This document shows, piece after piece, positions 307 through 12,281 of a stretch of DNA of 12,454 bases. The stretch's first letter is position 1, and every line of letters begins with the position of its first letter. The stretch is taken from contig JADHWW010000062.1 in NCBI GenBank assembly GCA_016783285.1, forward strand, positions 1-12,454. The letters run 5' to 3'. This DNA is from Anaerolineae bacterium (GTDB lineage: Bacteria; Chloroflexota; Anaerolineae; B4-G1). The notes under the pieces are model-generated. The model searched no databases. It was not told the DNA's origin and saw only the letters and a list, made by a program, of their open reading frames with translations. A program made the position numbers and the translations under genes.

Positions 307-3300
307 ATGAACACTCATCTTGCCCGCGTCAGTACAGGCAAACACTGGCTCGCCACTGCGCTGTACCTGTTGATTATCCTGGCCGTCGTCGTCGGATTAG
401 TGGCACTGCGGTGGGTCACCATCCTGCCAGAGCGCGTGGACGAGCAGCAGACGATTGTGTTGGGACAGACCCGCTTCGCCCCCGATAGCGACGCTTCGGT
501 GCGCGTGGTGGTGCAGGACTTCGGCGCCGGGCAACCCATCGCCGGCGCTCACGTGAAAGTGAGCCTGAAGCCCGCCAGCGGTCGGGCTGTCCCCCTCTTC
601 GAGGGGCAGACCGACGAGACCGGCAGCCTGCCGGTCCGCTTCCACGTGCCGGCCGACGCGCCCGCCGAGGCGTTACTCATCGTGGAGACCGAGTCGGCGG
701 TGGGGCGGGACCGGGTGGAACAGCCGGTAGCCATCCAGCGCGAGTACCGGATGCTCCTGACCAGCGACAAGCCCCTCTACCAACCTGGCCAGACCATCCA
801 CATGCGCGCGCTGGCCCTCAGTACCTTTGACCTGACCCCCGCCCGGGGCGCGACGGTTGATTTCCTGGTGGAAGACCCCAAAGGCAACAAGGTCTTCCGC
901 CAGAGTGCCACCGCCTCCGACTTCGGCGTCGCTGCCTCCGACTTCACCCTGGCCGATCTGGTCAACCAGGGGAACCATAAACTCAGCGTCTCCATCGGCG
1001 ACACTCGCTCCGAGAAGACGGTGGAGGTGCGCCCCTACGTCCTGCCCAAGTTCGGCGTGGATGTGTCCACCGATCGCTCCTTCTACCTCCCCGGTGAGCG
1101 GGTGGAGGGCGTGGTGCAGGCCGACTACTTCTTCGGCAAGCCCGTGGCGCAGGGAGAGGTGCGGGTCGTCGGCAGCGTGTGGGACGTGGAGCGCACGGCG
1201 GTGGTGGACATCAGCGGCCAGACCGACGAGAACGGCACTTACGAGTTCGGCTTCGACCTGCCCGAATACTTCGCCGGGCCGGGGTTGGAGTCGGGGCAAG
1301 CCCAGTTTGTCCTGGAAGTAACCGTCGTAGACCAGACCGACCACCCCGAGCAAACCAGCCAGGTGTTGCCCATCGCCGCCCAGCCGCTGGTCATCGAGGC
1401 GGTCGCCGAGAGCGGGATGCTCAAGCCGGGCGTCGAGAACATCGTCTACGTCCTCACCTCCTACCCCGACGGTCGTCCCGCGCCGGCTCGGTTGCAAATC
1501 AGCGTGGACGGCGGGGGAGCGGTGGAACTCACCAGTGGCGAGTTCGGCCTGACCGAGTTCACCTTCACACCGCAGCCGGGAGGCTATCACGTCCTCGATA
1601 TCGTTGCTCAGGATGAGACGGGGCTATCGGCCAGACGGCAGGTGGATTTCGAGACCGAGTACGGGAGCGACAGCGTCCTACTACGCGCCGACCGGGCCGC
1701 CTACGTCGTTGGCGAGACGATGAATCTGGTCGCCTTCACGCCGGTTGCATCCGGCGACGTCTACCTGGACATCGTGAAGGCCGGGCAGACCCTCTCCACC
1801 CGCTCGGCCCGTGTGCGGGACGGCAAGGCGGAATTCGCCGTTGACGTGAGTCCCGACCTGTATGGCACGCTGGAACTGCACGCCTACAAGGTACTGCTGG
1901 ATGGCACTGTCGTGCGCGACACGCGGCTGGTGGTGGTGGACGCGCCCAACGATCTGGCGATCACCGTCGCTGCGGACAAAGATACCTACCTGCCGGGCGA
2001 GATGGCGACTGTTGACTTCCAGACAAGCGAGGCAACAGAGGAGAGAGAGGGAGAGGAGAGAGGAGAGGGAGTACAGACGGCGCTGGGGGTGGCGATTGTG
2101 GATGAATCGGTCTTCGCCCTGCAGCGCCAGGACCCTGGCTTTGCCAAACTGTACTTCCTGCTGGAGCAGGAGTTGCTGGAGCCCTTCTACCAGATCAAAG
2201 GCTTCGAGTTGCCTGCCGCTATCTCCCCCAGCGAAGATGTGGAGCAAATCCGGCTGGCGCAGGACGACGCGGCTAAGGCCACCTGGGCTGGAGCGCCGGT
2301 TTTGGCGGCCCCCCGCCCCATCAACTCGCGCCAGGATAAGATGAGCGGAGTCATCTTGGCGCAGCAAAAGGGTTTTGAGCGCATCGGCCAGGCGTCCACC
2401 GCCGGTCTGATCCTCGTTCCGTTGCTGCTGTGGGTGGTGGTGCTGGTTGCCCTGCGGCGGACAGGGGTCGTGAAGCGTTCGCTCGTGCGGCTGGCCGTCG
2501 CCTCTGTAGTCATCCTGCTGCTCGGAGGATGCCTGGCTGGCTGGTTCATAGCGACGGGTGAGATGTTTTACTACTTCGATCCGGAATATACACTCATCCC
2601 GCTGGCCGTCGTCTTTGGCCTGGGGATGCTGGTCTTCGCCGGCTATGCCTGGGTGAAGCGTGACCCGGCAGCCAGGTTCCTCACGCTGTTGACGCTGGCC
2701 TGGCCCGCACTCCTCTTCCTGCTGATTCAGGCTTCGGACCGGGGACCCGCGCCGGCCGACGCATTGATTGTCGTAGGACTCCTGGCCTACCTGCTCATCC
2801 CCGGTGCGTATCTTCTCTTTGGACAGGCCCGCTGGGTGCAGGAGCGTCGCTTTGCCGGGGCGCTGGTCACTGGATTAGGCGCACTGTCGGCGCTGCCCGC
2901 GATGGTGATCCTGCCGGCTGTCCTCATGTTCACTGTAGGGGGTGGAATAGGTGCGATGGCCCCGCAGGCACTGAGGGGGAATGGAGTAGTGGAGGAGATG
3001 GAGTTCGCGGCGGGGCTGCCGGTTCAAATAGAGGCGACAGCGGTGGTGGAGAAAGCGGTAGAAGTTCCGCTGCCAGCCGCCGAGAGCGAACAGGCGGCCA
3101 GAGCCGAGGCCCCGCGCCTGCGCCAGTACTTCCCCGAGACCCTCTACTGGGCGCCGGAGATCGTCACCGACGAGAGCGGCTTCGTCTCCCTCGAAATCCC
3201 CATGGCCGACAGCATTACCACCTGGCGGCTGACGGCGCTGGCCTCGTCCCAGGACGGGCGGCTGGGTTTCACCACGCGTGGCATCCGTGTCTTCCAGGAT

Positions 3301-5238
3301 TTCTTCGTGGACATAGACCTGCCCGTTGCACTGACGCAGGGGGACGAGATCAGCATCCCCGTCGGCGTCTTCAACTACCTGTCTGAAGCCCAGGAGGTGC
3401 GGCTAGTGGTGGAACGGGAGCCCTGGTTTGAGTTGTTGGGTGAGGGCGAGCAGACGTTGACCATCGCTTCCAATGACATTGATGTGGTCTACTTCCCCAT
3501 CCGCGTCGTCAAATTTGGGCGGCAGGGCTTCCAGGTGACCGCCTGGGGCGAGCAGATGAGCGATGCCATCCGGCGCGAGGTGAACGTCGTGCCGGACGGC
3601 ATGGAGATTCGCCTGACGGAGAGCGACTGGCTGCGCGAGAGCAAGGAAATCGAACTCACTGTTCCGGCGGAGGCTGTACCGGAGACGCCCTACGTCGAGG
3701 TCAAGATCTACCCGGGGGTGATGTCTCAGGCGGTCGAGGGGTTAGAGAAAATACTCAGATTGCCCCACGGCTGATTTGAACAAAGTACGTCGGCGACGTA
3801 CCCGAATGTTCTGATCCTGGACTATATGCAGACCACTGGCAACGCTAACCCTGAGGTACAGATGCAGGCCGAAAAGTATGTCGGCACTGGCTACCAGCGC
3901 CTGCTGACCTTCGAGGTGCAGGGCGGCGGATTCTCCCTCTTCGGCCAGCCACCGGCGGATCCCTTCCTCACTGCCTACGGGCTGATGGAATTTTCCGACA
4001 TGGCCAAGGTCTACCCGGTGGACGAGGCCCTCATCGAGCGGACGGCGCAATGGCTACTGGCGCAGCAAGCGTCGGACGGCACGTGGACCGACCAGGGTTA
4101 TTCGGAGCACTGGCGCATAGACTCCAAGGTGCCCACCACCGCCTACATCGCCTGGGCGTTGATCGAGGCCGGTTACCAGGACACGCCGCAGATGGGGCAG
4201 GCCATCACCTACATCCGTGAGTTGGGCCTGCAACAGGAGCCTGTCCTGAGCGGAGCCGAAGGAGACGCCTACAGTCTGGCGCTAGTCGCCAACGCGCTGG
4301 CCGCCTACGATCCCGACGACTCGATGACGCGGGCTGTGCTCGACCGGTTGTACGACATGCGTATAGAGGAAGGGGACACCATCTACTGGCAGACCGGGAC
4401 TGCCTCGTTCATGGGTGCGACCGGCGAAAGCGGCAGCCTGGAGACGACGGCGCTGGCGGCCATCGCCCTGATGCGCGGCAACGCCCACTCCGACGCGGTG
4501 AGTGGCGCGCTGGCCTACCTCATCCAGGGCAAGGATTCCTGGGGCACGTGGTCCACCACCCAGGCCACCATCCTCTCCCTCAAGGCGTTGCTGCTATCTA
4601 CCGAGCAGGCAGGAGAGATCGAAGGCCCGGTGCGCTTGCGCGTGGGCCTGAACAAGGAGCAGACGCAGGAGATCACGATTGACGAGACCAATGCCGACGT
4701 GGTGCATTTGGTCACCTTCGACCGTGGTTTCTCACCCAGCGGCGCTAACCGAGTGCAGATCGAACTGGAAGGCGGCGGAAATCTGATGTACCAGGTCGCC
4801 ACCCGTTACTATCTGCCCTGGGACCAGGTGCCTATGGTGGAGATGATGGACGAACTCATCACCATTGACCTGGCCTACGACCGCACCCGACTGGCCGTCA
4901 ACGACGAGGTGACGGTGGACGTGGGGGTTAAACTGAACAGAGAAGGCGTGGTCAAGATGGCGCTGATTGACCTGGGGGTGCCACCTGGTTTCACTGTGTT
5001 GGCCGAGGACCTGAGCCGGCTGGTGGAGCAGAAGGTCATCGCCCGCTACGAACTAACGGGGCGACAGATCATCATCTACCTGGAGGACTTCTCGTCCGAG
5101 TCGCCGCTGGCCTTCAGTTACCGGCTGCGGGCGCGCTTCCCGATGCGGGCGCAGACACCTCCCTCCAGCGCCTACGACTACTACAACCCCGGCGATACAA
5201 CCATGCGCGCACCGCTGGAGGTGACGGTGAGCGAGTAG
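307..5238 (+). CDS. Membrane-anchored alpha-2-macroglobulin family protein, putative selenoprotein with UGA at the thioester position
   Basis: Read through UGA 3772-3774, this gives 1643 residues. ATG 307 is chosen because AGGGAGG (294-300) lies 6 bases upstream; ATG 289 has no such site. Order of parts: signal-anchor helix (about 14-34); macroglobulin domains including the MG2 signature DKPLYQPG (154-161) and a VLPKF-type MG3; MG6 end DESVFALQ (599-606); a six-helix membrane block (about 699-886) in the bait-region position; YFPET (941-945); then PHG-U-FEQ (1153-1159), where U is the UGA codon. After it come the helical thioester domain, with His1268 at the position of the C3 catalytic His, and a receptor-binding-like domain (GVPPGF near 1557, YYNPG near the end). 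Macroglobulins trap proteases or attach covalently to surfaces through a Cys-Gln thioester; here Sec would replace Cys. The protein should be anchored in the membrane and face outward. The alternative is a nonsense mutation, with the 1155-residue N-terminal part as the only product. Confidence 0.82.
2037..2071 (+). repeat. Homopurine low-complexity tract inside the macroglobulin gene
   Basis: Thirty-five consecutive purines, mostly GAG/GGA/AGA units, encode a Glu/Arg/Gly-rich stretch (residues 578-588) just before the MG6 strand that ends in DESVFALQ. It uses AGA and GGA codons that are rare in the surrounding GC-rich gene. It looks like a slippage-expanded surface loop and keeps the reading frame. 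Confidence 0.6.
3772..3816 (+). promoter_or_regulatory. Putative bacterial SECIS element with its selenocysteine UGA codon
   Basis: The UGA at 3772-3774 is followed by a 10-base spacer and then a perfect hairpin, GTACGTC-GGC-GACGTAC (3785-3801). That places 17 bases between UGA and the apical loop, and the loop begins with GG. Known bacterial SECIS elements lie directly downstream of UGA inside the coding frame, with a short upper stem about 11 bases from UGA in E. coli fdhF and a G early in the loop, so this fits. A lower stem can also form: bases 3773-3781 pair with 3808-3816 at 8 of 9 positions (one G-U, one U-U mismatch), leaving an internal loop of AAA opposite CCGAAT. The element would bind SelB carrying Sec-tRNA. 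Folding was done by eye. Confidence 0.78.
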
Positions 5239-5296: not shown

Positions 5297-5325
5297 TTGA
5301 CAGTCCCGTCAAATGATGTTATTCT
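5297..5325 (+). promoter_or_regulatory. Consensus sigma-70 promoter of the VanZ-like gene
   Basis: TTGACA (5297-5302), a 17-base spacer, and TATTCT (5320-5325) give a perfect -35 box and a 5-of-6 -10 box at ideal spacing. The start point should fall near 5331-5334, directly on the ATG at 5334, which implies a leaderless or nearly leaderless message. The ATGs at 5313 and 5316 lie inside the promoter and would not be transcribed. Confidence 0.72.
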
Positions 5326-5333
5326 CTGGAGCG

Positions 5334-5732
5334 ATGAAACGATTCCTCTGGCACTGGTTCCCGCCGCTGGCGTGGATGGCATTGATTTTTGTGCTGTCTG
5401 CCCAGACAGACCTGCCGCACGCCAAAGGGCGCTGGCTTGACCTGTTGCTCAAGAAGGCGGGCCACGCGGCGGCCTATGGCGTGTTGGCCTGGCTCTACCG
5501 GCGGGCGCTGCACCCTCACATTCCCACCGGCACTGTCCTTCGCGCAGTCAGCATTGGGTTAGCCGTGGCCTACGCCGCGAGTGACGAGTACCACCAGACC
5601 TTCGTGCCAGGGCGCAACGGTAACCTGGTGGACGTGGCGGTGGATGGGATGGGGGCGTGTGGGGCTATGCTGCTGGCCCGGTGGCGGGAAGGTCGGCGGG
5701 AGTTGCCTCGGCCGGAGTCTGTTGTTCGATAA
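5334..5732 (+). CDS. VanZ-like family membrane protein
   Basis: This is a 132-residue hydrophobic protein with the layout of the VanZ-like family: a first helix ending in Phe-Val-Leu-Ser-Ala-Gln, a helix with Gly-His-Ala-Ala-Ala-Tyr-Gly-Val-Leu-Ala, the signature DEYHQ (84-88) followed by Phe-Val-Pro-Gly-Arg, and a last helix starting Leu-Val-Asp-Val-Ala-Val-Asp-Gly-Met-Gly. VanZ of enterococci gives low-level teicoplanin resistance; most relatives have no proven role, and resistance should not be assumed here. ATG 5334 is preferred over 5313 because the strong promoter upstream would start transcription at about 5332. The last 68 bases overlap the end of scpA on the opposite strand. Confidence 0.85.
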   Translation: MKRFLWHWFPPLAWMALIFVLSAQTDLPHAKGRWLDLLLKKAGHAAAYGVLAWLYRRALHPHIPTGTVLRAVSIGLAVAYAASDEYHQTFVPGRNGNLVDVAVDGMGACGAMLLARWREGRRELPRPESVVR

Positions 5733-6423
5733 CGATTTCGCCGAACAGCCGTTCCTGCCGCACTTTCACTTGATCCTGTTTGATCAGTTCCAGCAGTGCC
5801 AGCAGGGTCACGATGATCTCGACACGGGTGGTGGCTGCTGAAAGAATCTCGCGGAAGCGGACCCGACGTCGCCGGGTTAGTTGATTCTCGATGCAGGCGA
5901 TTTGCTCGGCCACGGTCACCGTGATGGGCGCGACGACCTCCCCGACCGGCGGGGCGGGTATGGCGTCCAATGCCTCCTGTACGGCGGCCAACAGGTCGTG
6001 GAGCGCCACGTCGCCCAGGTCAAGTTGTGGTTCGAGGTGGGGGAGGGGGGCGATGCGCACGTAGCCGTGCAGCCCCTGCCTCTCCCGTTCGTGCAGTAGC
6101 GTCGCGATTTTTTTGAAGCGCCTGTAGACCTGCAACTGGCGCACCAGTTCGTCGCCCACGTCTTCGGCTTCAGGGGTCAGCGCTGGTGGACGCGGGAGCA
6201 GTGACTGGGACTTGATAAGCAGGAGTTTCGCCGCCACGACGAGAAAGTCTGCCAGTTCCTTTACTTGCCGTCGTTCCAGTTCCGCCAGGTAAGTCAGGTA
6301 CTGGTCGGTTACCTGGGCCAGCGCGACCGTGGTGATATCCAGTTCCTCCCGCTCAATGAGGTGGAGGAGCAAGTCCAGGGGGCCCTCGAAGACGGGCAAT
6401 CTAATCTGATAGTGTGGAGACAT
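5665..6423 (-). CDS. scpA: Segregation and condensation protein A
   Basis: This 252-residue protein begins Tyr-Gln-Ile-Arg-Leu-Pro-Val-Phe-Glu-Gly-Pro-Leu-Asp-Leu-Leu-Leu-His-Leu-Ile, the hallmark N-terminus of ScpA kleisins. It continues with the conserved Lys-Glu-Leu-Ala-Asp-Phe-Leu-Val-Val-Ala-Ala-Lys-Leu-Leu-Leu-Ile-Lys-Ser helix that binds the SMC neck. The C-terminal winged-helix part (about 175-232) should contact the SMC head. ScpA bridges the two SMC heads and, with ScpB, forms the condensin-like complex that compacts and separates chromosomes. The final 20 or so residues are Ala/Pro/Thr-rich and probably flexible. It is transcribed divergently from mreB. No scpB follows it: the gene runs convergently into the VanZ-like gene. 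Confidence 0.95.
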   Translation of the reverse strand: MSPHYQIRLPVFEGPLDLLLHLIEREELDITTVALAQVTDQYLTYLAELERRQVKELADFLVVAAKLLLIKSQSLLPRPPALTPEAEDVGDELVRQLQVYRRFKKIATLLHERERQGLHGYVRIAPLPHLEPQLDLGDVALHDLLAAVQEALDAIPAPPVGEVVAPITVTVAEQIACIENQLTRRRRVRFREILSAATTRVEIIVTLLALLELIKQDQVKVRQERLFGEIVIEQQTPAEATPADLPATGPAA

Positions 6424-6436
6424 AGCCGTAGGTCAG

Positions 6437-6464
6437 ATTATAGCACAAACAGGCTGTTTTCCAA
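6437..6464 (-). promoter_or_regulatory. Promoter for scpA
   Basis: On the minus strand, TATAAT (6442 down to 6437) is preceded after 16 bases by TTGGAA (6464-6459), a 4-of-6 match to the -35 box. Transcription would start near 6430, leaving only about seven bases before the ATG at 6423. No Shine-Dalgarno sequence is visible there, so scpA may be translated from a nearly leaderless message. Confidence 0.55.
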
Positions 6465-6487
6465 GATTTCCCCCGGTCTATGATTTG

Positions 6488-6496
6488 TGGTATAAT
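6488..6496 (+). promoter_or_regulatory. Extended -10 promoter for the mreB cluster
   Basis: TGG-TATAAT (TG at 6488-6489, perfect -10 box at 6491-6496) matches the extended -10 class, and the -35 region is poor (TTTCCC at 6467-6472). The start point would be near 6503, giving a leader of about 60 bases that contains a 7-bp hairpin (6508-6514 with 6534-6540) before the AGGAGA ribosome site. It is the only obvious promoter for mreBCD and the PBP2 gene, which follow closely. Confidence 0.55.
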
Positions 6497-6507
6497 TTGG
6501 CGTGGTA

Positions 6508-6540
6508 GCCCCGGTGTTGAAAGATCGAGTGGCCCGGGGC
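6508..6540 (+). other. Leader hairpin upstream of mreB
   Basis: GCCCCGG (6508-6514) pairs perfectly with CCGGGGC (6534-6540) around a 19-base loop, within the predicted 5' leader of the mreB transcript. It ends 14 bases before the AGGAGA ribosome site. It may stabilise the transcript end or modulate translation, but the sequence gives no direct sign of a regulator. Confidence 0.35.
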
Positions 6541-6565
6541 GGTAGTTTGTGTCTAGGAGACGCTT

Positions 6566-7636
6566 GTGTTCAATCCCATTGATGCCTTTCTTGGACTGTT
6601 CTCTCTTGATGTCGGCATTGACCTCGGCACGGCCAACACACTGGTCTACGTGAGAGGGAAGGGCATTGTCATCAACGAACCGTCCTGGGTAGCCATTGAG
6701 CGAAACAGCAGAAGAGTCCTTGCTATTGGCGCAGAGGCGAAGGAGATGGTCGGTCGTACGCCTGCCAATATCGTCGCTATTCGTCCCTTGCGCGATGGTG
6801 TTATCTCGGAATTCGACGTGACCGAGGCGATGTTGGACTACTTTATCAAGAAGGCGCATAGCCATCTCTTGCTGCCTTTCCCCCGTCCTCGTGTCGTCGT
6901 GGGCATTCCCAGTGGCGTGACCGAGGTCGAAAAACGTGCGGTGTACGATGCCTCTATCTCCGCTGGCGCACGAGAGGCTTTCCTGATTGAGGAGCCAATG
7001 GCGGCGGCTATCGGGGCCGGGATGCCGGTGACGGAGGCGCGCGGCAGCATGGTCGTGGACATCGGCGGCGGCACGACCGAGGTGGGCGTCTTCTGCCTGG
7101 GTGGCATTGTCGTCAGCCGTTCTCTCCGCATCGCTGGCGACGAGATGGACGAGGACATTATGCAGTACGCTCGCCAGAAGTACAACCTCTACATTGGGGA
7201 GCGTATGGCCGAGCGAGCCAAGATCAGCGTCGGGTCGGCATACCCGTTGCCTGAGGAGATGACGATGACGCTGCGTGGGCGCAATCTGGTCACCGGGTTG
7301 CCCGAGGCGATCGAGGTTAGCAGCATCGAGATCCGAGAGGCGTTGAGCGGGTCAGTCAGTATCATCGTGGATCTCGTCAGGGACGCGCTGGATGAGACTC
7401 CGCCAGAGTTGATCGCCGACCTGATGGAGACTGGCATCTGTCTGGCAGGTGGGGGCTCTCTGTTGAAGGGGTTGGCTGAGCGGATCAGTGAAGAGACGAA
7501 CATGCGGGCCTGGGTCGCTCAGGACCCGATGACCTGCGTGGCCCGTGGCGCTGGCAAGGTACTGGAGGAACTGGATGTGCTGCGCGAGGTGTTGGTCAGC
7601 ACCGACGACCGGCGACCCAGGACCCATGCCTTCTAA
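6566..7636 (+). CDS. mreB: Rod shape-determining actin homologue MreB
   Basis: This 356-residue actin-like ATPase has all the expected nucleotide-site motifs: phosphate-1 Asp-Val-Gly-Ile-Asp-Leu-Gly-Thr-Ala-Asn-Thr (15-25), phosphate-2 Asp-Ile-Gly-Gly-Gly-Thr (165-170), and the adenosine motif Gly-Gly-Gly-Ser (295-298). The segment Arg-Ile-Ala-Gly-Asp-Glu-Met-Asp-Glu and Tyr-Asn-Leu-Tyr-Ile-Gly-Glu-Arg are MreB-specific. MreB filaments lie under the membrane and guide the elongasome (MreC, MreD, RodA, PBP2). Start is GTG 6566 with AGGAGA five bases upstream. The N-terminus (Phe-Asn-Pro-Ile-Asp-Ala-Phe-Leu-Gly-Leu-Phe) could form a short membrane-binding helix. The C-terminal 20 residues after the adenosine domain are slightly longer and more charged than usual. 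Confidence 0.97.
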   Translation: MFNPIDAFLGLFSLDVGIDLGTANTLVYVRGKGIVINEPSWVAIERNSRRVLAIGAEAKEMVGRTPANIVAIRPLRDGVISEFDVTEAMLDYFIKKAHSHLLLPFPRPRVVVGIPSGVTEVEKRAVYDASISAGAREAFLIEEPMAAAIGAGMPVTEARGSMVVDIGGGTTEVGVFCLGGIVVSRSLRIAGDEMDEDIMQYARQKYNLYIGERMAERAKISVGSAYPLPEEMTMTLRGRNLVTGLPEAIEVSSIEIREALSGSVSIIVDLVRDALDETPPELIADLMETGICLAGGGSLLKGLAERISEETNMRAWVAQDPMTCVARGAGKVLEELDVLREVLVSTDDRRPRTHAF

Positions 7637-7695
7637 CTGGCCTCCATGTTGATTGAGGGGGGGAACCAGCGTCTGCTCATCGGTTGGGTGGGATT

Positions 7696-8586
7696 ATGAA
7701 TGAGTCTTCCCGCCGTCCATGGCTTCCCCTGCTGTTGCTTGTTCTCGGGCTGTTGCTTCTGGTATTCCACGAGTCCGGCTATCTGACCCCGGTGGAGAAT
7801 GTACTCCACTACGTGCTCGATCCGTTGCAGCGCGTGTTTTCGAGCGTGGTAGAGGCTACTGGTGGTCTGTTCAAGACGGTGCGCGAAGTGCGTGAACTGC
7901 GCGCTGAGGTCGAAGAACTGCAAGCGCAGGTGGACGCTCTGACGGTCGAGAATGTCCGCTTGAGAGAGTACGAGGCTGGGGTCGAACAATATCGTGCTTT
8001 GTTGAACTTCGCGAGCGAGTATCCGATCTCGGCTTACCTGGGTGCCGATGCGATCGGCGGGGAGGGCTGTGACACTTTCCCGTGTGGGGAGGTGGTGGGC
8101 ACAGAGCCGAATCCCTACCTGCGTTATGTTACCATCAACGTGGGAACACGGCAGGAGGTAGAGGTAGGGATGCCGGTCGTCAGTAGCGGGGCCGGGTTGG
8201 TGGGGCGGGTTGCGCAGGTTGGCCCGCGTACGGCCAAAGTCCAACTCCTTACCGACCCCGATAGTGCTGTCGCTGCTCTCCTTCAGACCTCCCGTGTCAC
8301 TGGCCTGGTTGTGGGGCAGCCCGACGGCGTCTTGCGTATGGAGTATATCCCGCAAGAGGAGAGCATCAACGTCGGCGAAATTGTACTGACCTCTGGGCTG
8401 GGCGGCTTTGTGCCTAAAGGCTTGGTCGTCGGCCAGGTTACCGAAGTGCAGCAGGTGGACTACGCGCTGTTCCAGACTGCTATCGTGCGGCCGGTGGTGG
8501 ACTTCTCGCGACTGGAACTGGTATTGGTGATCACCACGTTTGAACAGATCCCTCTAGACGAAGAGCCCCCGCCCGAAGAGCCGTAG
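7696..8586 (+). CDS. mreC: Rod shape-determining protein MreC
   Basis: This 296-residue protein has a short cytoplasmic tail, one membrane helix (about 9-24), a coiled coil (about 62-105, heptad-like Arg-Glu-Leu-Arg-Ala-Glu-Val-Glu-Glu-Leu) and a beta-rich outer domain with the MreC signatures Gly-Met-Pro-Val-Val-Ser-Ser-Gly-Ala-Gly-Leu-Val-Gly-Arg-Val and Leu-Leu-Thr-Asp-Pro-Asp-Ser. MreC connects MreB inside to PBP2 outside and activates the transpeptidase. ATG 7696 is chosen (GGGTGGGA just upstream); an in-frame TTG at 7684 would add four residues. Two cysteines close together (Gly-Cys-Asp-Thr-Phe-Pro-Cys-Gly, about 120-125) sit early in the outer domain and could form a disulfide. The C-terminus is acidic and proline-rich. 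Confidence 0.95.
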   Translation: MNESSRRPWLPLLLLVLGLLLLVFHESGYLTPVENVLHYVLDPLQRVFSSVVEATGGLFKTVREVRELRAEVEELQAQVDALTVENVRLREYEAGVEQYRALLNFASEYPISAYLGADAIGGEGCDTFPCGEVVGTEPNPYLRYVTINVGTRQEVEVGMPVVSSGAGLVGRVAQVGPRTAKVQLLTDPDSAVAALLQTSRVTGLVVGQPDGVLRMEYIPQEESINVGEIVLTSGLGGFVPKGLVVGQVTEVQQVDYALFQTAIVRPVVDFSRLELVLVITTFEQIPLDEEPPPEEP

Positions 8587-8621
8587 TCTCACGTTTCGCG
8601 TTTCACGCCAGGAGGTGTGAG

Positions 8622-9122
8622 ATTAATCCCTACCTGACCATTCCTCTTCTGACCGGCATAGCCTTGATCCAGAGCGTTCTGCTATCGCGAGTGAATCTGT
8701 GGGGAGCGCGACCTGATCTGATGTTGCTGGTCGTGCTGGCGTGGGCCGTAGTGCGCGGAGTAGACGAGGGACTGATGTGGGGTTTTATCGGTGGGCTGAT
8801 CGTTGATCTACTCTCCGGGGGGCCACTGGGCGCGACCCCACTGGCTCTGTTGGCCGTGGTCTTCCTGGCCGGGCGGCCGTGGGGACGGGGCTTCGGTCCG
8901 CCGGTAGTACGTCTTCTGCTCCTGGCGCTTCTCGGCGTCGTGGTCTACCATCTGGTCTTGCTGTTTGTTCTGACCTGGACGGGGCATGCGGTGGATTGGA
9001 GGTTTGCGCTGATGCGGGTGGTCGGTCCATCGGCGCTGCTTAACGTAGTGCTGGCTCCGTTCGTCCGGCAGCCGCTGGCCTGGTTGGAGCGAAAAATGCG
9101 ACAGGAGAGATTCGCACTGTGA
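8622..9122 (+). CDS. mreD: Rod shape-determining protein MreD, probable ATT start
   Basis: This 166-residue, very hydrophobic protein has several membrane helices and an MreD-type beginning: Asn-Pro-Tyr-Leu, a first helix through Leu-Ile-Gln-Ser-Val-Leu-Leu, then Leu-Trp-Gly-Ala-Arg-Pro-Asp-Leu-Met-Leu-Leu. Later segments Gly-Phe-Ile-Gly-Gly-Leu-Ile-Val-Asp-Leu-Leu and Pro-Leu-Gly-Ala also fit the family. No ATG, GTG or TTG is available at the right place. The only one in frame near the front, TTG 8664, would cut the first helix in half and has no ribosome site. ATT 8622 lies six bases after a perfect AGGAGG (8610-8615). The gene ends with a four-base overlap (GTGA) with the PBP2 gene, indicating coupled translation. 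MreD is a membrane partner of MreC in the elongasome. Confidence 0.88.
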   Translation: MNPYLTIPLLTGIALIQSVLLSRVNLWGARPDLMLLVVLAWAVVRGVDEGLMWGFIGGLIVDLLSGGPLGATPLALLAVVFLAGRPWGRGFGPPVVRLLLLALLGVVVYHLVLLFVLTWTGHAVDWRFALMRVVGPSALLNVVLAPFVRQPLAWLERKMRQERFAL

Positions 9123-11119
9123 CACTGCACAAAGCGCCGCAGCGGGTTGCCCTTCGACGGACTCAGGACATCGCTCAGAGCCGATGGCAGGCACGCTGGG
9201 CGGCAATCATAGGAGCACCCCGGGTTGTCGCGTTGGGTTTGCTGGTTCTGTGCGTCCTTGGGGTTTTTGGCCTTCGATTGTGGGATCTGCAATTTGTGCA
9301 GGGCGAAGACTACCGCGCCTGGGCGGAACGGCAGCGGTTGAGGCCAGTCGTTATCCCTGCTGCTCGGGGCATCATCTACGACCGCGCTGGCACGCCGCTG
9401 GTGCGCAACGTCCCCAGTTTCAACGTCGCTGTCGTCACCGCCTATCTGCCCGATGACGAGGCTGAGGCTGAGTCTGTGCTCATTCGCCTGGCCATGCTGC
9501 TCGATATGCCCTACAGCGCGGACAGCGTGCGTGGGAGTGAAGATAACAGAGGCTTGCGCGAGATTGTGCCTTATACCTATACGGCCAGTTATAGCCCGTT
9601 GGTGATCAAACCAGGGATAGAGCGGGATACGGCATTGTTGTTGAAACAGGAGGCGATGACGCTGCCCGGCGTGTCGGTCGAGGTGGCATCGGTGCGCGAT
9701 TATCCCTACAGCCCACTGGTGTCGCAGATGCTGGGATATATGCTGCCCATTCCTGAGGAAAGTGAAGAGGAGTACGTTGCGCTAGGCTACGATTCGGCCA
9801 CGGATCGCGTCGGCAATGCTGGCGTCGAGGCCACTTACGAGGAGGTGTTGCGGGGGGAGAAGGGCCGGATGCTCATCGAGGAGGACGTGATGGGCCGGGT
9901 GATCCGCGTGGTTGAGCAGCAGGCCGCGTCTGTGCCAGGTGATAATGTCCATCTGACGCTTGATCTCGACCTGCAACGGTTTGTCGAAGAAGCATTGCGG
10001 TATGCAATGGCCGAGCCGAACGTGAACTCGCCGCGTGGGGTGGCGATCGTGATGAACCCGCAGACGGGCGAGATCCTGGCGCTGGTCAGCCTGCCGACTT
10101 ACGATAACAACCTTTTCACCCAGGGTATCTCGGCACGTGATTTGCAACGCCTGCAGGACCCCCACCGGCCGCTGTTCAACCACGCCATCTCAGATCGCCT
10201 GCAACCTGGGTCAACGTTTAAGATCGTGATGGCGGCTGCTGCCCTCCAGGAGGGGGTACTGACGCCGCGCACACGCCTCTCCTGCCCTGGCACTATCGTT
10301 GTACCCAACAAGTATTATCCCAACGATCCCGGCATGGCGCAGTCGTTTTACTGCTGGAACCGGGCTGGTCACGGCTCGCTGGATGTGGTGGGTGGCATTG
10401 CCAATTCGTGCAATATCTTCTTCTACAAAGTTGGGGGGGGATTCGAGCAGACCGACTTCGAGGGACTGGGTGTGGAGCGCATCGCCCAGTATGCCCGGTT
10501 GTTCGGCTTTGGGGAGCCGACCGGCGTGGAGTTGCTGGGCGAGACCGGCGGTTTGGTGCCCACGGCGACCTGGAAGCGGCTCACGTATGGCGAGTCCTGG
10601 TCCACCGGCGATACCTATAACCTATCCATTGGAGAGGGGTATCTCTCCGTCACACCGCTGCAAATGCTCAACGCCGTGAACGTCGTCGCCAACGGCGGCA
10701 CACTCTACCGCCCGTGTATCGTCCACCACGTCACCGATGCCCAGGGGGTCGTGACTCAGCCTTTCGAGCCGGAGATCATCCGCACGCTGCACATCAGCCC
10801 GGAGAACTGGTCGCTGGTGCAGCAGGGGATGGAGGGGGCGGTGGCCTATGGCACAGCGCCAAGGGCGCGGATCGAAGGGCTGCGCGTGGCCGGCAAGACC
10901 GGCACGGCCCAGTACTGTGACGATATTGCGGCGGCGGCCGGTCTTTGCGAAGGGACCTGGCCAGAGCACGCCTGGTTTGCTGCCTTTGCGCCCGTGGAGA
11001 AGCCAGAGGTCTCCGTCGTCGTCTTCCTGTACAACGGAGGTGAGGGATCGGTGGTGGCGGTGCCGGTGGCCCACGACATTCTGGAGTATTATTTCAGCCG
11101 CGATGAGACCACGCCCTGA
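9119..11119 (+). CDS. mrdA: Penicillin-binding protein 2, elongasome transpeptidase
   Basis: This 666-residue class B penicillin-binding protein has a cytoplasmic tail, one membrane helix (about 35-54), a dimerisation domain beginning with Arg-Gly-Ile-Ile-Tyr-Asp-Arg, and a transpeptidase domain with all three active-site motifs: Ser365-Thr-Phe-Lys368, Ser430-Cys-Asn432, and Lys593-Thr-Gly595. It cross-links peptidoglycan stems during side-wall growth with RodA, MreC and MreD. Start is GTG 9119, overlapping the mreD stop by four bases, with AGGAGA 10 bases upstream. Four Cys residues in the catalytic domain, one inside the SCN motif, are a mild peculiarity. The neighbours (mreBCD directly upstream) favour PBP2 over the septal PBP3. 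The symbol follows common use; pbpA would be equally valid. Confidence 0.94.
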   Translation: MTLHKAPQRVALRRTQDIAQSRWQARWAAIIGAPRVVALGLLVLCVLGVFGLRLWDLQFVQGEDYRAWAERQRLRPVVIPAARGIIYDRAGTPLVRNVPSFNVAVVTAYLPDDEAEAESVLIRLAMLLDMPYSADSVRGSEDNRGLREIVPYTYTASYSPLVIKPGIERDTALLLKQEAMTLPGVSVEVASVRDYPYSPLVSQMLGYMLPIPEESEEEYVALGYDSATDRVGNAGVEATYEEVLRGEKGRMLIEEDVMGRVIRVVEQQAASVPGDNVHLTLDLDLQRFVEEALRYAMAEPNVNSPRGVAIVMNPQTGEILALVSLPTYDNNLFTQGISARDLQRLQDPHRPLFNHAISDRLQPGSTFKIVMAAAALQEGVLTPRTRLSCPGTIVVPNKYYPNDPGMAQSFYCWNRAGHGSLDVVGGIANSCNIFFYKVGGGFEQTDFEGLGVERIAQYARLFGFGEPTGVELLGETGGLVPTATWKRLTYGESWSTGDTYNLSIGEGYLSVTPLQMLNAVNVVANGGTLYRPCIVHHVTDAQGVVTQPFEPEIIRTLHISPENWSLVQQGMEGAVAYGTAPRARIEGLRVAGKTGTAQYCDDIAAAAGLCEGTWPEHAWFAAFAPVEKPEVSVVVFLYNGGEGSVVAVPVAHDILEYYFSRDETTP

Positions 11120-11130
11120 CGACCGGTTGA

Positions 11131-11313
11131 GTGCGGCCGGAGTCGGCGGGGCAGGCGCGATCTGGGGACTACGTCCCCGATATCTCTGTCTTCTTGCTCC
11201 CTGCCCACCTGATCCCTGCAATCTGGATCGTCGCCGGTATTGCATACTTCATTGGTCTTCTCTCAACCCTGGCGAAGATTATTCTCTATACTGGGTTAGG
11301 TGGCGACCTTTAG
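11131..11313 (+). CDS. Possible small membrane protein, unrecognised
   Basis: A GTG-started frame of 60 residues begins 12 bases after the PBP2 stop. From residue 13 on, its third codon positions are rich in C and G like those of real genes nearby. The product has one long hydrophobic helix (Ile-Pro-Ala-Ile-Trp-Ile-Val-Ala-Gly-Ile-Ala-Tyr-Phe-Ile-Gly-Leu-Leu). No clear ribosome site precedes it; translation could be coupled to PBP2. I do not recognise it. It does not look like the start of RodA, the expected next gene. It may be the first half of a frameshifted gene continued at 11358-11513. Confidence 0.33.
   Translation: MRPESAGQARSGDYVPDISVFLLPAHLIPAIWIVAGIAYFIGLLSTLAKIILYTGLGGDL
11164..11178 (+). 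other. Small hairpin near the start of the unassigned stretch
   Basis: GGGGAC-TAC-GTCCCC is a perfect 6-bp stem with a three-base loop, 45 bases after the PBP2 stop. The following bases are pyrimidine-rich (CTCTGTCTTCTTG) but do not form a T-run. It could be a weak terminator for the mre/PBP2 transcript or simply lie within the small ORF that covers it. Confidence 0.3.
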
Positions 11314-11357
11314 GCCAAAAGCGTCTTTGTCCACCGGGGATCGCTTCTTTGCCAGGG

Positions 11358-11513
11358 ATGTTCGCGACCTTCGCCAGGGTGGCCGAATGTCTGTTGTTGT
11401 TCATCGGCTGTTATCTGCTGGCGACGATGCAGCGCTTGCCTGTCGTAGACGAGATGGGACGGGCGGTGAGTGACCGCGTCGTCGTGGGAAGGTTCGAGAC
11501 CCGTGGCCCTTGA
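11358..11513 (+). CDS. Possible short membrane ORF or second half of a frameshifted gene
   Basis: This 51-residue frame (ATG 11358, stop TGA 11511-11513) has strongly G/C-ending codons and a plausible protein composition. It has a hydrophobic segment (Cys-Leu-Leu-Leu-Phe-Ile-Gly-Cys-Tyr-Leu-Leu-Ala) followed by a short polar tail rich in Arg, Asp and Val. The same frame is open further upstream, but there it reads as Cys-, Pro-, Trp- and Arg-rich nonsense, suggesting that the true reading switches from the 11131 frame to this one around 11285-11340. No function can be assigned. An intact gene of about 125 residues broken by one shift is as likely as two small genes. Confidence 0.27.
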   Translation: MFATFARVAECLLLFIGCYLLATMQRLPVVDEMGRAVSDRVVVGRFETRGP

Positions 11514-11546
11514 TAATCTACTAATCTACCAATTTGCCAGTTCTTG

Positions 11547-11555
11547 TGCTATAAT
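11547..11555 (+). promoter_or_regulatory. Extended -10 promoter for minC-minD
   Basis: TGC-TATAAT (TG at 11547-11548, perfect -10 box at 11550-11555) follows the same extended -10 pattern as the mreB promoter. No good -35 box is found at 16-18 bases. The start point would be near 11562, leaving about 20 bases before the GTG of minC at 11583. This suggests that minCD is transcribed on its own, apart from the mre genes. Confidence 0.55.
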
Positions 11556-11582
11556 GCCGTTGATGTGCCAGAAAGGGAACGT

Positions 11583-12281
11583 GTGAGCCCAGATACAATC
11601 ACTATCAAGGGTATCCGCCAGGGGCTGCTCGTCACGCTGGGGGAGGGGGATTGGGACGCCGGACTGCTTGCGTTGGAGACACGTCTTGGTGCTAACCCCG
11701 CTTTCTTTCGCGGTGGCCACCTTGCTCTCGACGTCGGGGCGCGAGAATTGATTCACTCCGAGATTGATGAGGCACGTGCGCTGCTTGCCCGCCACCAGGT
11801 TGAGTTGTGGGCGCTGATTAGCACGAATCCCATTACAGAGGCGGCCGCGCAGGAGTTAGGGCTGGTGATTAGCCTTGGCCTGCCTCACTCACGCGCGCCG
11901 GAGGCCGTGACCGAAGGGGACGAGGATCCCGTTGCCGAAGGGATGGTTGTGCGGCGCACGCTTCGTTCTGGCCAGAGCCTGCGCTATCCGGGCCACGTCG
12001 TGGTCATCGGCGACGTCAACCCTGGGGCAGAAGTAGTGGCGGGTGGTGACATACTGGTGTGGGGCCGGGTGCGTGGGGTGGTGCACGCCGGGGCGTTGGG
12101 GGATGAGGGGGCTGTGATCTGTGCTCTCGACCTGGCTCCGACGCAACTCCGCATCGCCGGTCACATCGCCCGCTCCCCGGAGGAGCGACGGCGCGAGCCT
12201 GTGCCGGAGATGGCCTCCGTGCGCGAAGGAAAGATTGTGGCTGTTCCCTGGAATGACAGTGAGATGAGACGGGTGGAGTAA
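11583..12281 (+). CDS. minC: Septum-site determining protein MinC
   Basis: This 232-residue protein has the two MinC parts. The N-terminal domain (about 1-105) begins Ile-Thr-Ile-Lys-Gly-Ile-Arg-Gln-Gly-Leu-Leu-Val and should act on FtsZ filaments. After an acidic linker comes the C-terminal beta-helix with the characteristic Arg-Ser-Gly-Gln-Ser-Leu-Arg-Tyr-Pro-Gly-His-Val-Val-Val-Ile-Gly-Asp-Val-Asn-Pro-Gly-Ala-type repeats and Gly-Gly-Asp-Ile-Leu-Val-Trp-Gly-Arg-Val-Arg-Gly, which dimerises and binds MinD. MinC blocks Z-ring assembly away from mid-cell. Start GTG 11583 has AAAGGGA just upstream and follows the promoter; the longer frame from 11544 would begin before the start of transcription. 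minD follows after nine bases. Confidence 0.93.
   Translation: MSPDTITIKGIRQGLLVTLGEGDWDAGLLALETRLGANPAFFRGGHLALDVGARELIHSEIDEARALLARHQVELWALISTNPITEAAAQELGLVISLGLPHSRAPEAVTEGDEDPVAEGMVVRRTLRSGQSLRYPGHVVVIGDVNPGAEVVAGGDILVWGRVRGVVHAGALGDEGAVICALDLAPTQLRIAGHIARSPEERRREPVPEMASVREGKIVAVPWNDSEMRRVE

Follow-up and report, generated by a model that had tools for sequence, protein, structure and literature searches.

A predicted selenocysteine at the thioester position of bacterial alpha-2-macroglobulins

An alpha-2-macroglobulin-like gene with an in-frame UGA

The window, i.e. the whole 12,454-nucleotide stretch of DNA that was analysed, carried an alpha-2-macroglobulin-like gene at positions 307–5238 on the plus strand, on which all features within the gene are also numbered. 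According to the frame, its translation and Pfam, this gene encoded 1643 residues when UGA was read as selenocysteine (Sec). It started with ATG at 307, preceded by AGGGAGG at 294–300, and ended with TAG at 5236–5238. The sole in-frame stop codon was a TGA at 3772–3774, in the translated context LPHG-TGA-FEQSTSATYPN. Based on translation, homologue codons and alignment, this UGA encodes the predicted Sec1156 and stands where GCxEQ has its thioester Cys. A preliminary description had equated it with the Cys of the Gly-Cys-x-Glu-Gln motif, and this was borne out by a phmmer alignment with human CD109, in which RLPHG-U-FEQ lay opposite RMPYGCGEQ with both the Cys position and the following Gln matched. 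The codon of Gln1159, the predicted acyl partner of Sec1156, was located at 3781–3783, and Gln was present there in 142 of 142 aligned rows. An ORF search with the standard code ended the protein at Gly1155 and made the thioester domain a separate ORF.

The Pfam domains of the read-through product followed the order MG2, MG3, A2M_BRD, A2M, TED_complement and A2M_recep. The MG2 domain (PF01835) was located at 751–1029, the A2M bait-region domain (PF07703) at 1681–2121, the A2M domain (PF00207) at 3139–3408, the thioester-containing domain (TED; PF07678, structure model and Foldseek) at 3718–4590, and an A2M receptor-binding-like domain (PF07677) at 4954–5205. An NCBIfam search yielded weak cyclase matches only, all below the cut-off. 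The preliminary description had also reported an intact thioester domain and C-terminus beyond the UGA, where TED_complement and A2M_recep were indeed found, and 488 open codons, a figure that includes the final TAG. A hydropathy scan predicted an N-terminal hydrophobic anchor (residues 10–42; 334–432) and six transmembrane segments (residues 693–886; 2383–2964), the latter as an insert that separates the bait-region domain from the A2M domain. The only other Cys of the window protein, Cys742, lay inside a predicted membrane helix. The N-terminal anchor and the six-helix insert probably anchor the protein in the membrane, and both A2M halves would be placed outside it.

In structural comparison, the model of the C-terminal half (mean pLDDT 78.3, pTM 0.75) was closest to native human A2ML1 (7q1y) and CD109 (8s3o), both with a TM score of 0.82 in Foldseek, and was less similar to C3b (TM about 0.34). 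CD109 (8s3o) was also the nearest solved sequence (E = 7.7e-70), with its thioester Cys and Gln aligned. As modelled, the C-terminal half is of the A2M/C3 fold; the pLDDT was below 50 at the thioester motif (model residues 222–230). The codon of His1268 (4108–4110) was opposite the His of CD109 GRVIHSEL. This His was almost invariant in the alignment of 36 close relatives and fell in a column that was poorly aligned family-wide; a catalytic His common to the wide family could not be fixed from the wide alignment.

Coding constraint continued past the UGA. Four pairwise comparisons with other Sec genes gave a dN/dS of 0.15–0.19 on the 3' side of the UGA (466 codons) and a higher one, 0.20–0.29, on the 5' side (573–579 codons). 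By this measure, the part downstream of the UGA is under purifying selection, and a pseudogene was rejected given the low dN/dS past the codon. The GC3 was nearly constant across the UGA (0.815 before and 0.823 after). Elsewhere in the window, UGA served as the stop of mreD, of the PBP2 gene and of a partial frame at 1–147 that lacked a Pfam match, in agreement with the three UGA-terminated genes described previously. Therefore, a general reassignment of UGA was rejected.

Downstream of the macroglobulin gene (5313–12281), the window encoded a VanZ-like protein, ScpA (minus strand), MreB, MreC, MreD, PBP2 and MinC, i.e. mostly cell-elongation genes. No PBP gene was found among 18 nearby ORFs tested at four related loci (L001, L002, L004 and L012). 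No conserved operon was detected: the tested neighbours differed among the window and these loci; the mre/PBP2 context is therefore probably incidental.

Sec and Cys codons among relatives

In a first scan, which covered species genomes of bacteria and archaea, 127 stretches were confirmed; the best 80 were kept and gave 79 loci. The search peptides lie outside the UGA site. Three phylum-wide scans gave matches in 9 of 400, 21 of 392 and 20 of 195 genomes at set thresholds, query genomes counted; two of these scans, including that of the phylum of genome G016, used Sec members as queries. After removal of identical 150-base copies, and with the window included, 132 distinct sites were available. 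The thioester-position codon was TGA at 36 sites and a Cys codon at 96 (TGC at 64, TGT at 32), whereas TAA, TAG and TGG were found at none. The genome search for UGA and Cys macroglobulins that had been proposed previously thus returned both forms. With TGA at 36 of 132 sites and TAA or TAG at 0 of 132, a chance nonsense mutation or sequencing error was rejected; an error at 3772–3774, raised earlier as a possible refutation, is very unlikely, the same codon being present in many other genomes. Judged by their record titles, TGA carriers in the first scan included Chloroflexi, Planctomycetota, Deltaproteobacteria and one Abditibacteriales metagenome-assembled genome (MAG). A Cys macroglobulin was also observed in a MAG titled Nanohalarchaeota (L045), whose contig is possibly a misbinned bacterial one.

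All 36 aligned Sec rows retained P-x-G-U-x-E-Q. The closest protein to that of the window, P0002, was 93% identical over the C-terminal part and carried GCFEQ, which was also present in P0003 (85% identity over residues 1050–1645). In a maximum-likelihood tree built rapidly from 142 rows, of which 36 were Sec, no fewer than 12 switches between Sec and Cys were required, with 11 enforced by starred branches; L037 was left out here, as in the folding analysis, because it was too short. The tree carries a long-branch warning, with one long branch involving the Sec row L112. In this tree the window grouped with the Cys protein P0002. Furthermore, Sec and Cys macroglobulins were both present in each of four genomes (G016, G012, G015 and G491). 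The recurrent switches, the close Cys orthologues and the presence of both forms in some genomes therefore correspond to the Cys/Sec exchange pattern of selenoproteins. At locus L057, two Sec macroglobulins were arranged in tandem (3897 and 10579), with a gene for a PPIC-type prolyl isomerase between them.

Predicted SECIS hairpins and the Sec machinery

A predicted bacterial SECIS (bSECIS) was located at 3785–3801, with a stem of GTACGTC (3785–3791) and GACGTAC (3795–3801) closed by the loop GGC (3792–3794). Its last base, 3801, coincides with the end of the span given in the preliminary description. The stem started 10 bases and the apical loop 17 nt past the UGA. According to the part of PMC13188914 that sets out the bSECIS model, the loop comprises 3–9 nt with a G in its first two bases and lies 16–37 nt from the UGA, and the stem has 4–16 bp with an energy of at most −7.5 kcal/mol. 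The window hairpin fitted this model (7 bp, loop GGC, spacing 17, −11.5 kcal/mol). Taken alone it was modest: comparison with dinucleotide shuffles gave a z of −1.2, with 22 of the 200 shuffles equally good, and comparison with synonymous recoding a z of −1.54, with 12% of its own recodings satisfying the model.

Across the family, 19 of 36 UGA sites satisfied the model, against an expectation of 4.0 ± 1.8 under synonymous recoding; for the Cys sites, 10 of 95 were observed and 9.1 expected. The mean z of the folding energy against synonymous recoding was −1.31 for the 36 UGA sites and −0.23 for the 95 Cys sites (p = 1.8e-7; all hairpin statistics ignore relatedness among the sequences). The SECIS signal thus appears strong in the sequences of the family and modest in the window alone. 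Seventeen of the 36 UGA sites, including L069, did not satisfy the strict model; loops of 14 nt, which account for some of these misfits, were found in L060, L063, L103 and L112, and the L069 hairpin belonged to a class with loops of 14–16 nt.

Third bases of codons +4 to +8 were identical in 11 Sec genes of the Chloroflexota type, in which residue +7 varied (Ala, Leu, Ser, Val). The 7-bp stem was retained with six or seven pairs at 12 of 36 UGA sites versus 0 of 95 Cys sites; any of three stem positions, with at most one pair off, was found at 25 of 36 versus 4 of 95. The idea of one SECIS shape common to every UGA member was rejected, as there were at least three stem positions and 11 of the 36 fitted none within one pair. 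Covariation, which is descriptive here because the same sequences served to choose and to test the classes (the published-model test is the less biased one), was 0.667 in a hairpin class of seven sequences against 0.198 when shuffled, and 0.347 against 0.141 in a class of eight. In both classes, 0 of 500 shuffles were as high and slid versions were all lower. For the eight-sequence class, two of the five measures, pairs changed on both sides and pair types, were not above shuffles (163/500 and 306/500). A search of the window with Rfam gave no match at gathering scores.

The Sec machinery was searched in relatives in two batches. The first covered 50 of the 79 loci in 49 genomes (17 UGA-bearing and 32 Cys-only) for SelA, SelB and tRNA-Sec, and the second covered 42 genomes (11 and 31, respectively) for SelA and SelB. 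Here, Cys-only means that only Cys loci are known from that genome, in which an undetected Sec copy is possible. SelA or SelB exceeded the cut-off in 28 of 28 UGA-bearing genomes and in 44 of 63 Cys-only genomes (Fisher p = 3.4e-4, kinship ignored). Because Cys-only genomes often had the machinery as well, the co-occurrence discriminates weakly. Among the UGA genomes, SelA was above the curated cut-off in 26 of 28 and SelB in 23 of 28. The five counted as SelB misses at the cut-off comprised G001, with a 100-N scaffold gap past the first 43 residues of SelB, G008, with an N-gap inside the gene, G576, with a SelB-like frame at a contig edge, and G749 and G591, where the genome search gave no clear SelB.

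In the first batch, tRNA-Sec scored at least 58 bits, a line chosen after the scores were known, in 14 of 17 UGA genomes and 18 of 32 Cys-only genomes; at the Rfam cut-off of 47, it was found in 15 of the 17 UGA genomes. SelD, considered for the UGA genomes only, was above the cut-off in 24 of 28, each with an in-frame TGA in a SelD match. This TGA was at the SelD Sec site in five of five copies examined, and the SelD match of G749 contained a TAG besides the TGA. A lack of Sec machinery, named earlier as a refutation, is contradicted in these relatives, and the host of the window probably has such machinery of its own. Several genomes had multiple copies of components: G013 had three SelB matches over the cut-off, G480 had two plus a third just below it, and G010 had two tRNA-Sec matches, both strong. 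Paralogous Sec systems tied to different hairpin classes might exist in these genomes.

The selenoester reading and its alternatives

The product of the window gene is almost certainly a bacterial alpha-2-macroglobulin of type I, the thioester class, with Sec1156 inserted at the UGA under the direction of the hairpin at 3785–3801. The selenocysteine reading, put forward in the preliminary description, was supported by the computation: the position of the codon, the recurrent UGA and close Cys orthologues, the SECIS-model hairpin with its family-wide excess and covariation, the machinery of relatives, purifying selection and the fold. SelB and Sec-tRNA(Sec) would read the UGA at 3772–3774 under guidance of the hairpin, and the N-terminal anchor and six-helix insert would hold the protein in the membrane, leaving the two A2M halves on the outer side. 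An internal selenoester, instead of a thioester, would be formed by Sec1156 and Gln1159. Once a foreign protease has cut the bait region, the activated acyl group of Gln would move onto the attacker and tether it. Such a Sec1156–Gln1159 bond with acyl transfer to the protease after the bait cut is probable, given the motif kept in all Sec rows, the lack of an obvious redox partner in the window protein and in L004, and the resemblance of the modelled C-terminal half to native CD109; the reading as a whole, a membrane-anchored protease trap with a Sec–Gln selenoester warhead, is one we hold with fair confidence. As acyl donors, selenoesters are more reactive than thioesters. In type I A2Ms, as described in portions of PMC3328433 and PMC5764988, the CxEQ thioester attacks the protease once the bait is cleaved.

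Alternatively, an inserted Sec could form no ester and instead serve redox chemistry (peroxide or thiol exchange, or sensing). For most prokaryotic selenoproteins redox functions are assumed (PMC13188914), and several Sec members contain other Cys residues (many or several, e.g. in L060, L063 and L069). We nevertheless consider this unlikely, as P-x-G-U-x-E-Q, including the Gln as ester partner, was kept in all 36 Sec rows, and neither a CxxU nor a UxxC motif was present at the site of the window. Furthermore, L004 had no Cys at all and the lone other Cys of the window protein is in a membrane helix, so an internal redox partner is not obvious in either; therefore, Gln1159 is the natural partner of Sec. 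A redox use of Sec is possible in Cys-rich members such as L060 and L069. If Sec does form the ester, its exchange with Cys could still be a near-neutral swap that follows selenium supply and brings no special chemical benefit. The switches, at least 12 in number, the Cys orthologue at 93% identity and the Sec and Cys paralogues within single genomes (G016, G012, G015 and G491) are in line with such a swap, but covarying hairpins were retained within divergent clades, and we judge it rather improbable.

Decoding of the UGA as something other than Sec appears highly improbable. A UGA-decoding tRNA-Cys is a possible route to Cys, which is the family residue at this position, and a changed code could place another residue there. 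Against this, three frames of the window itself (mreD, the PBP2 gene and one partial frame) use UGA as their stop, the excess of SECIS-model hairpins was confined to UGA sites, and SelA, SelB, tRNA-Sec and a Sec-type SelD were found in most relatives tested. The possibility that the locus is a pseudogene, a sequencing error or a true stop that yields a product of 1155 residues can practically be dismissed: nothing beyond the codon itself speaks for it, and it conflicts with 36 distinct sites that were all TGA and never TAA or TAG, with the dN/dS of 0.15–0.19 past the UGA and with the even GC3 (0.815 versus 0.823).

The Sec1156 macroglobulin was further compared with known systems. It shared MG domains, a bait-region domain, a TED with an xEQ motif and a C-terminal receptor-like domain with ECAM/YfhM of E. 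coli and Sa-A2M of Salmonella, and was of the same A2M/C3 fold class as type I bacterial A2Ms. Unlike ECAM/YfhM and Sa-A2M, the window gene has a Sec codon for the thioester Cys, with the rest of CxEQ kept, a predicted six-helix membrane insert and no adjoining PBP1c gene. Such adjacency is frequent and not universal for type I A2M genes, as reported in portions of PMC3328433 and PMC5764988. Because a Sec codon replaces the Cys of CxEQ, the protein is a variant rather than a plain member of the type I A2Ms. From human CD109, A2M, A2ML1 and complement C3 it differs in being bacterial and in its predicted Sec and transmembrane bundle.

With known prokaryotic selenoproteins, the family has in common an in-frame UGA, a bSECIS, Cys homologues and SelA, SelB and SelD in relatives. 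A 2026 catalogue of 119 selenoprotein families and subfamilies contains no macroglobulin or thioester-domain family in its Table 1, and for most of its families a role linked to redox or metals is assumed (PMC13188914). The word "macroglobulin" was absent from the main texts of PMC13188914, PMC12013277 and PMC4807772, and no title on a Sec macroglobulin was found among the matches listed in a search of the open-licence literature. This agrees with the earlier statement that such a selenoprotein had not been described. As far as these searches show, the proteins form an undescribed selenoprotein family and represent the Sec version of a kind of protein already known. Table 1 of PMC13188914 does list a CTP synthase C-terminal region-related selenoprotein, which is glutamine amidotransferase-like and contains GxUxG. 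Of the families listed, this one comes closest to a precedent for acyl chemistry with Sec, and it may be a true one. From enzyme chemistry, we take its Sec to be probably located at a nucleophile that passes through an acyl intermediate. Its ester would be an enzyme–substrate intermediate, whereas a stable internal ester that traps another protein is predicted here, and the domains are unrelated. Selenoprotein K has also been linked to protein acylation, according to part of PMC5789314.

It seems reasonably likely, if less so than the trap itself, that the intramolecular selenoester occurs in nature and that bacteria of several phyla repeatedly armed their macroglobulin traps, as cell-surface proteins of defence, with Sec in a non-redox, acyl-transfer role. 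If true, this would be a selenoprotein family with Sec at the bond-forming residue of a covalent trap and not at a redox centre. The data also suggest an extracytoplasmic use of Sec in Chloroflexota and Planctomycetota. For annotation, the consequence is that standard-code ORF calling splits the window protein at Gly1155 and orphans its thioester domain. With naturally occurring orthologues of the Sec and Cys type that share 93% identity over the C-terminal part, the benefit of selenium in acyl transfer becomes testable. Candidatus Uabimicrobium amorphum SRT547 (G016) may be open to experiment: this named strain has a complete genome that encodes SelA, SelB, tRNA-Sec and a SelD with an in-frame TGA in addition to the Sec macroglobulin L069. 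The same genome also harbours a Cys macroglobulin (L116). In the scan of the phylum of G016, with a Sec member as query, one in-frame TGA was present in 21 of the 29 matches listed and in 15 of 21 matching genomes, and the phylum of G016 may be rich in Sec macroglobulins.
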